From Modestobacter altitudinis (GTDB lineage Bacteria > Actinomycetota > Actinomycetes > Mycobacteriales > Geodermatophilaceae): DNA of 64,000 nucleotides. The DNA is taken from positions 1 to 64,000 of the forward strand of contig NZ_SJEW01000024.1 in NCBI RefSeq assembly GCF_005930475.1. Reading direction: 5' to 3'. Under the pieces are notes generated by a model, which saw only the letters and a program-made list of their open reading frames with translations, was not told the DNA's origin and searched no databases. Made by a program: the position numbers and the translations under genes. Below, in pieces: positions 7,062 through 9,492 of this stretch; position 1 is the stretch's first letter, and every line of letters starts with the position of its first letter.

Positions 7062-7943
7062 ATGGCCGTGGGGATGCTGCAGGTGGACGTCGGCGACCTG
7101 ACCTTCGACGTGCGGACCGACGGCCCCGAGGACGGCCCTCCGGTGCTGCTGCTGCACGGCTTCCCGGAGACCTCGCTGAGCTGGTCGGCGGTCACGCCGC
7201 TGCTGGCCGAGGCGGGGCTGCGCACCTACGCACCGGACCAGCTGGGCTACTCCCCCGGCGCCCGACCCGACGACGTCGACGCCTACGCGCTGCCTGCGCT
7301 GGTGGCAGTGACGGCGGACCTGATGACCGCCCTGGACCTCCCGGTCGCCGACGTCGTCGGGCACGACTGGGGCGCCAACGTGGCCTGGGGCCTGGCCGCC
7401 TGGCACCCCGACCGGGTCCGCACGCTGACCGCGGTCTCGGTGCCGCACCCCACCGCGTACACGCTGGCCTTCCGCGCCGATCCGGAGCAGAAGGAGCGCT
7501 CGGCCTACATCAAGCTGTTCTGGCAGGTCGGGAAGGCCGAGGAGGTGCTGCTCGAGGACGGCGGGCGGCGGCTGCGCCGGATGCTCGACGCCCCCGGGGT
7601 GCCCACCGAGGCGGTCGAGCTCTACGTGGACCAGCTGTCGGCGCCGGGCGCGCTGACCGCGGCGCTGAACTGGTACCGGGCGATGAGCTCGGCGACGCCG
7701 GTGGACCCGGTCGACGTGCCGACGACCTACGTCTGGAGCGACGGCGACGTCGCGGTGGGCCGGACGGCCGCCGAGGCGTGCGCCGACCAGGTGCGGGGCG
7801 ACTACCGCTTCGTCGAGCTGCCCGGGATCACCCACTGGGTCCCCGAGCAGGCCCCCGAGCAGCTGGCCCGGGCGGTGCTGGACCGGATCGCCCGCGGCCC
7901 CCTCCTCACCCCCGGGGCAGGCCTCCACACGCCGCCGAGCTGA
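7062..7943 (+). CDS. Alpha/beta hydrolase, epoxide hydrolase / haloalkane dehalogenase type
   Basis: A 293-residue alpha/beta hydrolase. LLLHGFPETSLSW carries the oxyanion-hole HGxP, and VVGHDWGANVAW has Asp as the nucleophile instead of Ser; an Asp in GHDWG is the signature of epoxide hydrolases and haloalkane dehalogenases. The histidine of the triad is in ITHWVPEQAPEQLA, and the acid is probably in YVWSDGD. A cap domain fits residues 130-210. Substrate cannot be told from sequence. No signal peptide, so cytoplasmic. The ATG is leaderless (TAGGTT six bases upstream). It diverges from the M20 peptidase gene and is followed by 124 bases with no gene before the DUF1326 pair. Confidence 0.88.
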   Translation: MAVGMLQVDVGDLTFDVRTDGPEDGPPVLLLHGFPETSLSWSAVTPLLAEAGLRTYAPDQLGYSPGARPDDVDAYALPALVAVTADLMTALDLPVADVVGHDWGANVAWGLAAWHPDRVRTLTAVSVPHPTAYTLAFRADPEQKERSAYIKLFWQVGKAEEVLLEDGGRRLRRMLDAPGVPTEAVELYVDQLSAPGALTAALNWYRAMSSATPVDPVDVPTTYVWSDGDVAVGRTAAEACADQVRGDYRFVELPGITHWVPEQAPEQLARAVLDRIARGPLLTPGAGLHTPPS

Positions 7944-8067
7944 CGCCGCGGAGCGCACCGCGACCGGCCGTGGCGACACGACGGGGCACCTGCTGGTGCG
8001 CGCCGAGGACTCGTTGACCTCTCTCGCTGGGCCGCAGGACACTCGGCGTCGCCGAGGGGAGTCTGCG
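7944..8067 (+). promoter_or_regulatory. Spacer with possible promoter of the DUF1326-DUF2182 pair
   Basis: No coding potential seen in these 124 bases. A TTGACC at about 8016 could be a -35 element, but no good -10 follows at the right distance. GAGGGGA at 8054-8060 is the ribosome-binding site that fixes the ATG at 8068. Confidence 0.35.
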
Positions 8068-8670
8068 ATGGCGTGGAACCTGCGGGGCAGCTACGCGGAG
8101 ACGTGTTCCTGCGAGCTGATGTGCCCCTGCAACCTCTCGTTCGACCATGGCGCCACCTACGACCACTGCCGGGCGTGCCTCGCGTTCACCATCCGGGACG
8201 GTCAGATCGAGGGCACCGACGTCGGCGGTCGCAGGGTGGTCACTGTCATCGACACCCCGAAGGTCATGACCGACGGCAACTGGCGGCTCGGGATGTACGT
8301 CGACGCCGAGGCGACCGACGAGCAGTTCGACAGGCTGGTCCAGGTCTTCGGTGGGCAGCTGGGTGGTCCGATGGCCGCCCTGGCGCCGCTCGTCGGGGAG
8401 GTCGTCGGGGTGCAGCGGGCGGCGATCGAGCTGACCGACGACGGGCTGCGGCACAGGGTGCGGGTCGATGACGCGGTCGACTTCGAGATCGAGGACATCG
8501 TGCCCTTCGGGGTCGACACCGGTCGGCCGGTCCGGTTCTCCGGGATGTTCCACCCTGTCGCGTCGGACCTGACGATGGCCGAGGCCCGGCGCTCTCGGAT
8601 CGACGCCTTCGGCATCCGGTACGAGGGGAAGACGGGCCTGTCCACCGCCGACTTCACGTGGTCCGCCTGA
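8068..8670 (+). CDS. DUF1326 domain protein with Cys-rich metal-binding motif
   Basis: A 200-residue DUF1326 protein. Near the N-terminus it has ETCSCELMCPCNLSFDHG followed by YDHCRACLAF: a dense set of cysteines and a histidine that looks like a metal site. The rest is a beta-rich domain with GVDTGRPVRFSGMFHP near the end. The family has no settled function. The start is ATG 8068 after a GAGGGGA ribosome-binding site; an open extension upstream lacks family features. It is followed after 15 bases by a DUF2182 membrane protein. The two families often occur together, so they probably form one system, perhaps handling a transition metal (inference). Confidence 0.88.
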   Translation: MAWNLRGSYAETCSCELMCPCNLSFDHGATYDHCRACLAFTIRDGQIEGTDVGGRRVVTVIDTPKVMTDGNWRLGMYVDAEATDEQFDRLVQVFGGQLGGPMAALAPLVGEVVGVQRAAIELTDDGLRHRVRVDDAVDFEIEDIVPFGVDTGRPVRFSGMFHPVASDLTMAEARRSRIDAFGIRYEGKTGLSTADFTWSA

Positions 8671-8685
8671 GCGGGGCACTCCAGC

Positions 8686-9492
8686 GTGCCGCGCCTCCAC
8701 CCCGACCAGGACCTCGCTGCCGCACTCGCTGCCGCGCGCGTCCGACTGGGCCTCGTCGCGACACTCCTCGTCCTCGCCGGAATGGGCTGGTGGTGGACGG
8801 CCGGGCGGATGCAGGGCATGGACGACGGGCCCTGGACCGGCCTCGGGACGCTGAGCTGGTTCCTCGGCGTCTGGGTCGTGATGATGGCCGCGATGATGTT
8901 CCCGTCGGTGGCGCCGACGGTCGCGTTGTTCTCCCGGATGACCAGGTCGAGGTCTCTGCTGACCCCGCTGCTCTTCGCGGCCGGCTACCTGACCACCTGG
9001 GCCGCAGCAGGCCTGGTCGCCTTCGGCATCGGCCTGGCCGGGCGTCGGTTGCCGGGCGACCCACTCAGCTGGGATGCCGCCGGCCGGCCGGTCGCCGCAG
9101 CCACCCTGCTGGTCGCAGCCGCCTACGAAGTGACCCCGATCAAGGACGTCTGCCTGCGCCGGTGCCGCAGTCCCCTCGGCGTACTGCTCACCGGCTGGCG
9201 AGACGGACGGTCCGGGGCGCTGCGGATGGGCGCGCGCAACGGGGCGTGGTGCGTCGGCTGCTGCTGGGCCCTGATGGCGTCGCTGTTCGCGCTGGGGGTC
9301 ATGAGCGTGGTCTGGATGGCGCTCGTCGCCGCGCTGATCGCGCTGGAGAAGACCGTCCCGGGTGGCCGGGCGGTCACCTACGGGACGGCGGGCGTGCTCC
9401 TCGTGCTGGGCGTCCTGCTGTGGGTGGCTCCTGCGGCCATCCCCGCGCTCACCGTCCCCGGCAGCGGGATGTCCTCGATGTCCACCGGCTGA
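8686..9492 (+). CDS. DUF2182 integral membrane protein
   Basis: A 268-residue polytopic membrane protein of the DUF2182 family. About six hydrophobic helices are visible, the first at residues 20-38. Family signatures: WVVMMAAMMFPSVAPTVALF, LTTWAAAGLVAF, YEVTPIKDVCLRRCRSPLG and GARNGAWCVGCCWALM. The Met-rich MMAAMM and the cysteine clusters at helix ends could bind metal; the family is described as a predicted metal-binding membrane protein without a proven role. GTG 8686 lies 15 bases after the DUF1326 stop, so the genes form an operon. Next on the other strand is adnB, with 33 bases between the convergent stops. Confidence 0.87.
   Translation: MPRLHPDQDLAAALAAARVRLGLVATLLVLAGMGWWWTAGRMQGMDDGPWTGLGTLSWFLGVWVVMMAAMMFPSVAPTVALFSRMTRSRSLLTPLLFAAGYLTTWAAAGLVAFGIGLAGRRLPGDPLSWDAAGRPVAAATLLVAAAYEVTPIKDVCLRRCRSPLGVLLTGWRDGRSGALRMGARNGAWCVGCCWALMASLFALGVMSVVWMALVAALIALEKTVPGGRAVTYGTAGVLLVLGVLLWVAPAAIPALTVPGSGMSSMSTG

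Follow-up and report, generated by a model that had tools for sequence, protein, structure and literature searches.

In eukaryotes, the copper importer CTR1 and the chaperone ATOX1 bring together outer methionines, membrane methionines, inner cysteines and a soluble thiol acceptor. CTR is not found in bacterial genomes, and bacterial copper import, for which further importers are expected, has been analysed in few cases, according to the available portion of PMC7558416. CcoA/CalT serves copper uptake at the bacterial inner membrane (PMC7558416, same portion), the activity that we propose below for PpoB2; CcoA, however, is an MFS protein, whereas PpoB2 matches only PF09948 in Pfam at E up to 1. 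Among the closest described systems is PpoB1-PpoB2 of Marinomonas mediterranea, a tyrosinase and a copper-transfer protein, where a PpoB2-family membrane gene stands in tandem with a partner gene. There, PpoB2 passes copper to the tyrosinase of its own operon and does not supply another copper oxidase (PMC2855505, in the part of that paper at hand).

The window analysed here, a 64,000-nucleotide stretch of Modestobacter altitudinis DNA (G000:C78:1-64000), carries a similar tandem on its + strand. A DUF1326 gene (8068..8670, ATG start, 200 aa) matches PF07040 with an E-value of 2.1e-53 and 181.5 bits, against a curated cut-off of 25, and is followed by a DUF2182 gene (8686..9492, GTG start, 268 aa) that matches PF09948 (COG5486) with an E-value of 2.4e-62 and 210.7 bits, against a curated cut-off of 28.7. 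The 15 bases that an earlier note on this DNA had placed between the two genes are those from 8671 to 8685. The same note held that neither family has an established function; this still describes DUF1326, a function-unknown family in Pfam, but not DUF2182, which now carries the Pfam name PpoB2, “Copper chaperone”, and has a published role. The partner of PpoB2 is DUF1326 in the window and a tyrosinase in Marinomonas, a comparison made by family rather than by alignment. We consider it most likely that the neighbouring DUF1326 and PpoB2 genes form a small copper-handling unit. More specifically, we assign a probability of roughly 0.47 to the reading that they constitute a two-gene transcription unit handling Cu(I), in which PpoB2 would act as an inward relay to DUF1326, a cytosolic carrier.

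Judging from the upstream sequence, the pair is probably transcribed from a promoter of its own. A frame that ends at 7943 and looks like an alpha/beta hydrolase precedes a promoter-like element, TTGACC-N17-GGACAC (8014..8042, + strand), the -10 part of which is unusual. A likely ribosome-binding site, GAGGGGAG (8054..8061, + strand), stands before the ATG at 8068, and a similar purine-rich stretch occupies this place in many aligned relatives. The element has counterparts upstream of related pairs: the pattern TTGAC-N(16-20)-GGANA(A/C/T), which was chosen after seeing the alignment and fitted to rows that are related, matches 11 of 21 upstream regions, the window included, compared with a mean of 0.009 and a maximum of 1 in 1000 single-base shuffles. 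We rejected a general promoter class for the element, as its strict form, TTGACN{17,18}GGACAC, is no commoner in the genome than a reversed control (two occurrences each). DUF1326 and PpoB2 would share one transcript.

Co-occurrence of the two families, a check suggested in the earlier note, was examined in one phylum and bore out the association. Among 396 sampled genomes, PpoB2 was found in 73, DUF1326 in 62 and both in 55 (Fisher 1.6e-43). PpoB2 lay within 1.5 kb of 67 of the 91 DUF1326 places, and DUF1326 within 1.5 kb of 64 of the 91 PpoB2 places, the first look having scored no more than 8 candidates in any genome. The two genes were on one strand in 64 of the 67 cases (45 with DUF1326 upstream, 19 with PpoB2 upstream) and on opposite strands in three; some of the 24 DUF1326 places without PpoB2 within 1.5 kb are tandem DUF1326 genes. 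This sample is a fairer measure of pairing than a search of genome contigs for a PpoB2 motif, in which 76 of 80 loci (the best 80 of at least 585 matches) had DUF1326 within 1.5 kb, a figure biased towards pairs because the ranking favoured loci that resemble the paired PpoB2 of the window. Six plasmid loci added to the scan, which were hand-picked records present in the match lists of both families, were all paired within 1.5 kb. When all loci are combined, the two genes share a strand in 132 of 141 neighbouring combinations, with DUF1326 leading in 117. By record titles and labels, paired loci are known from Actinomycetota, Pseudomonadota, Chloroflexota, Acidobacteriota, Binatota, Dormiibacterota and Myxococcota, and from the archaeon Haloferax. 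Within the genus of the window, the PpoB2 family has a scattered distribution, occurring in 6 of 22 sampled relatives.

Distances among DUF1326 proteins correlate with those among their PpoB2 neighbours (r 0.60 for 105 non-redundant pairs, against a permutation maximum of 0.13); the correlation includes any shared signal of species relatedness and drops to 0.12 beyond a PpoB2 distance of 0.5. A conserved third gene was rejected after clustering of 4,293 neighbour frames within 6 kb of PpoB2 at 86 loci, where the largest recurrence was 10 loci. No DUF1326-PpoB2 fusion appeared among the frames read, and ten scanned frames adjoining lone DUF1326 genes yielded no recurrent family. On plasmid pHG1 of Cupriavidus necator, a GDCCVxC-domain protein follows the pair (L076:8628-8855), and a relative of it occurs at locus L133. 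Multiple DUF1326 genes follow one another or stand back to back at loci L048, L179, L180 and L181, which suggests diversification of DUF1326; at L179-L181, the stretch covered contains no PpoB2.

To place the paired form among its relatives, we read 20 PpoB2 loci without DUF1326, 17 from genomes and three on chosen annotated plasmids (L161, L162, L167). A tyrosinase gene was adjoining and upstream in nine of the 20, and a copper or heavy-metal ATPase gene lay within about 4.5 kb in four, counts that are not unbiased because the three plasmids were hand-chosen. A DUF899 gene was directly upstream in two (L170:4895-5695 and L172:4612-5373), in the slot held elsewhere by tyrosinase or DUF1326, and five had no nameable neighbour. 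The missing DUF1326 at L169, L193 and L194 may be an artefact, because these loci are at contig ends. The neighbour frames picked numbered 114, of which 81 were scanned jointly and 10 singly; 14 from L162 and L167, annotated already, and nine others were left out. The tyrosinase call at L175 comes from tblastn and a further search, the frame given to Pfam having matched nothing, and at L195 a single frame (582-2369) adjoining PpoB2 joins a tyrosinase domain to hemopexin repeats. In the phylum sample, tyrosinase was within 4 kb of 7 of the 27 lone PpoB2 places, which include contig-end fragments and three matches below the family cut-off, and of none of the 64 paired places (Fisher 1.1e-4). In the linked loci tyrosinase is upstream of PpoB2, the position mostly held by DUF1326 in the pairs. 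Since tyrosinase is found by lone PpoB2 and not by paired PpoB2, the partners seem to replace each other.

Other relatives have copper genes of a different kind nearby. PpoB2 of the M. avium plasmid pMAH135 (L162) adjoins CsoR, a copper ATPase and a multicopper oxidase, that of Sulfitobacter (L167) is near a heavy-metal ATPase and CueR, and those at L192 and L194 are beside ATPases. A tree was built from 122 PpoB2 proteins; its bootstrap is unsettled, and long branches come together in its tyrosinase-linked part. That part, a single group (100/99), consists of all nine tyrosinase-linked proteins and a second PpoB2 of this genome, while three ATPase-linked rows sit apart from that group and from each other. 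The pMAH135 protein groups with a paired Mycobacterium (L155; 100/93), and that of Sulfitobacter with the paired Marinovum and Antarctobacter (L072/L074; 100/100). L192 groups with L184 (100/82), where DUF1326 is about 2.6 kb away, and the branch that holds them also contains two Streptomyces pairs (96/87). As the ATPase-linked rows are nested with or near paired rows, the paired and copper-linked forms share recent ancestors, and this is the main reason for extending copper to the paired form. Queries with CopA, multicopper oxidase, CsoR and tyrosinase matched no paired locus examined, and no copper gene was found adjoining the window pair. We regard the copper link of the PpoB2 family as well supported by context; copper would then be the metal of the paired form also.

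The sole tyrosinase found in this genome is on contig C13 and the window pair is on contig C78, an arrangement unlike a tyrosinase-PpoB2 operon. The second PpoB2 of the genome (L168, G000:C142:4195-4863), although it falls in the tyrosinase-linked tree group, has no tyrosinase that we could find adjoining it; its neighbours are two phage-tail-sheath proteins, a CHAT-domain protein and a weak TIR match, perhaps a contractile-injection island.

Three motifs to which the earlier note had drawn attention in the membrane protein, MMxxMM, VCLRRC and WCVGCC, are all present, and most of their residues are strongly conserved among 98 paired PpoB2 proteins. In the first (8881..8898, + strand; TM2), M66 and M70 are kept in 96 of the 98, M67 in 84 and M71 in all, the last also in 9/9 tyrosinase-linked proteins. 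VCLRRC, in the predicted cytosolic loop between TM4 and TM5, supplies C156 and C160 (9151..9165, + strand); C160 is present in 98/98 paired and 9/9 tyrosinase-linked proteins, C156 in 95/98 paired but in only 1/9 tyrosinase-linked. At the start of TM5, the cysteines of WCVGCC belong to a CxxCCxxxM motif (9250..9276, + strand), of which C189 (98/98 and 9/9), C193 (98/98 and 8/9) and M197 (94/98 and 9/9) are common to both forms, whereas C192 occurs in 98/98 paired and 0/9 tyrosinase-linked proteins. Five of these residues (M71, C160, C189, C193 and M197) are invariant in a 28-sequence family alignment, and the window protein has them all. In their outer parts, the tyrosinase-linked relatives in the phylum have His in place of Met, so that the window PpoB2 differs from them in C156, C192 and its outer methionines. 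We considered C156 and C192 as marks of partnership with DUF1326, an idea weakened because other lone PpoB2 rows mostly retain both: C156 is found in 9/10 and C192 in 8/10 proteins of unknown context without an adjoining DUF1326, and each in 2/3 ATPase-linked proteins. Both were thus lost in the tyrosinase-linked clade, possibly in a single event, and are not specific to pairing with DUF1326.

PpoB2 probably has seven transmembrane helices with the N-terminus inside and the C-terminus outside, according to a predicted model (pLDDT 86.9) on which the loop limits were set by hand. With those limits, the positive loops are TM2-3, TM4-5 and TM6-7 (mean Lys+Arg 3.43, 5.80 and 2.01), compared with means of 0.62, 0.44 and 0.02 in the remaining loops and 0.44 in the tail. 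Such charges would put the cysteines inside and the methionine-rich first loop and the tail outside. The TM1-TM2 loop averages 2.03 Met in 19.4 residues over the 98 paired proteins; in the window it includes M42 and M45 (RMQGMD, 8809..8820, + strand), whose precise placement varies. By sequence, no solved relative of PpoB2 was detected at E up to 1, and the best fold match, to F-BAR domains at Z 5.6, was taken as chance. Sequence, fold and Pfam comparison alike yielded no link to the known copper importers CTR, CcoA and CopD.

In DUF1326, the CxCxxxCPC cluster described in the earlier note (C13, C15, C19 and C21; 8104..8130, + strand) is present and 99-100% conserved over 105 non-redundant pairs, and its cysteines are invariant in a 25-sequence alignment. 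The HxxC and CxxC-like residues said to follow it fared less well: C34 (8167..8169, + strand) is a fifth conserved cysteine in the alignments, also at 99-100% over the 105 pairs, but the window protein reads HCRAC, with no exact HxxC, and C37 is not conserved, being absent already in an 80%-identical relative. The five columns, all Cys in the window protein, hold 524 of the 567 cysteines in the 105 pairs, and we therefore take the pattern to be more than chance. Among H, M, K, E, D, R, Y and W, just one Asp column exceeds 90%, and no His, Met, Lys, Arg or Tyr column exceeds 70% in the 105 non-redundant sequences. No signal-like hydrophobic stretch was seen in 153 of 156 DUF1326 N-termini, or in any of the seven linked tyrosinases checked (of nine); for this reason, both partners look cytosolic.

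Members of the acetoacetate decarboxylase family use a catalytic lysine. The AlphaFold2 model of DUF1326 (pLDDT 94.2) is predicted to have a fold of this kind, its best matches being acetoacetate-decarboxylase-like structures (4zbt, 4jmd, 3bgt; VIA Z 10-11). The top match had a Z of 11.0, an rmsd of 3.9 and 9% identity over 159 aligned residues, whereas no other fold exceeded Z 8; Foldseek gave an E-value of 8e-5 but a TM-score of only 0.35 (0.34 to 0.43 by query length). Such a shared fold shows no function, and DUF1326 differs from the decarboxylases in having no counterpart of the catalytic lysine among the 105 sequences (no Lys column above 70%) and in its five-cysteine loop. In the model, the five cysteines occupy the loop that connects strands one and two, or its ends (residues 13 to 34).

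We propose that PpoB2, as a seven-helix membrane protein, would take up Cu(I) at its methionine-rich outer face, move it through the TM2 and TM5 methionines M66, M70, M71 and M197 to the cytosolic-face cysteines C189, C192, C193, C156 and C160, and deliver it to DUF1326. The five-cysteine loop of DUF1326, on a predicted decarboxylase-like barrel, would bind the copper, and the protein, as a cytosolic carrier, may transfer, store or use it. The inward direction is suggested by the predicted topology and by partners that look cytosolic. The resemblance to CTR1 and ATOX1 is one of proposed logic only; PpoB2 has seven helices in one chain, and its acceptor differs in fold. The view in the earlier note that both proteins are rich in thiols and thioethers, as expected of a Cu(I)-type soft-metal system, gains support from the published role of PpoB2, its copper-linked relatives, the conserved Cys and Met residues and the pairing of the families, with copper in the paired form presumed from these.

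On two roseobacter plasmids, those of Marinovum (L072:7209-13851) and Antarctobacter (L074:7190-10742), the pair is beside DMSP demethylase and AcuI-like oxidoreductase genes, and the Marinovum cluster adds an acyl-CoA synthetase and SBP56. SBP56 is near the pair in two loci only among those examined (L072, L086) and was not found in this genome. DUF1326 is present in 18 of the 35 SBP56 genomes among the 396 sampled (Fisher 1.8e-7), an excess concentrated in a few families and with a nearest same-contig distance of 100 kb; we did not accept SBP56 as a general client. The same doubt attaches to the presence of DUF1326 in 10 of 29 tyrosinase genomes, which is above expectation (p 0.0075). The DMSP/SBP56 neighbourhood is a lead rather than a general rule.

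DUF1326 might instead be the client of PpoB2, a copper-thiolate enzyme or sensor on a decarboxylase fold that is metallated as tyrosinase is elsewhere. Its usual place upstream of PpoB2 is that of tyrosinase in the tyrosinase-linked loci, tyrosinase is the client described for M. mediterranea (PMC2855505, part at hand), the nearest fold is an enzyme fold, and the 24 of 91 DUF1326 places without PpoB2 within 1.5 kb also suit a protein of this sort; one Asp column above 90% and no His, Lys, Arg or Tyr column above 70% are, however, thin for an active site, and we think this rather unlikely. That DUF1326 is an ordinary acetoacetate-decarboxylase-like enzyme with structural cysteines would agree with the VIA match (Z 11.0 over 159 residues), but the absence of a conserved lysine, the rank of the cysteines as the most conserved residues, the tight link to a copper-family membrane protein and the low Foldseek TM-scores (0.34 to 0.43 by query length) make it very improbable.

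The ATPase clusters of PpoB2 relatives would also fit export or tolerance. The pair could then serve copper tolerance, with DUF1326 buffering surplus cytosolic Cu(I) and PpoB2 exporting or holding it at the membrane, and the copper or heavy-metal genes by the relatives in M. avium pMAH135, Sulfitobacter, L192 and L194 lend this some weight. We judge it unlikely nonetheless: CopA, CsoR and multicopper oxidase queries matched no paired locus examined, the linked tyrosinases checked look cytosolic, which places the need for copper inside, and the role reported in the available part of PMC2855505 is supply to an enzyme. The five thiolates of DUF1326 could, being all cysteine, be ligands of zinc or mercury, and handling of another thiophilic metal (zinc, silver, mercury) or thiol chemistry, such as methanethiol-related sulfur metabolism, would accord with the DMSP demethylation genes by the pair in Marinovum and Antarctobacter and with the GDCCVxC protein after it in C. 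necator pHG1. Methionines in the membrane and the copper neighbourhoods of nested relatives speak for Cu(I), and even the Marinovum cluster includes SBP56, a relative of which, in Hyphomicrobium, is a copper-dependent methanethiol oxidase (PMC5739008, in part), such that a different metal or chemistry appears quite improbable. Our preferred reading remains Cu(I) relayed inward by PpoB2 to a DUF1326 carrier.

PpoB2 and its copper role were known already. In literature searched by family names and numbers and by PpoB2, with most subscription journals outside its reach, we found neither the pairing with DUF1326, nor the five-cysteine protein of decarboxylase fold, nor the exchange of tyrosinase for another partner; the names DUF1326 and DUF2182 were absent from the main texts searched, and COG5486 led to PMC2855505 only. 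It is conceivable, if doubtful, that DUF1326 is the first member of a novel class of copper-thiolate proteins in the cytosol, perhaps copper enzymes of decarboxylase fold, and that the pair is a dedicated module for copper import and hand-over in several bacterial phyla and in haloarchaea. If the proposed relay is true, a pair common to 55 of 396 genomes would represent a broad new route of copper import, and DUF1326 would gain its first function.
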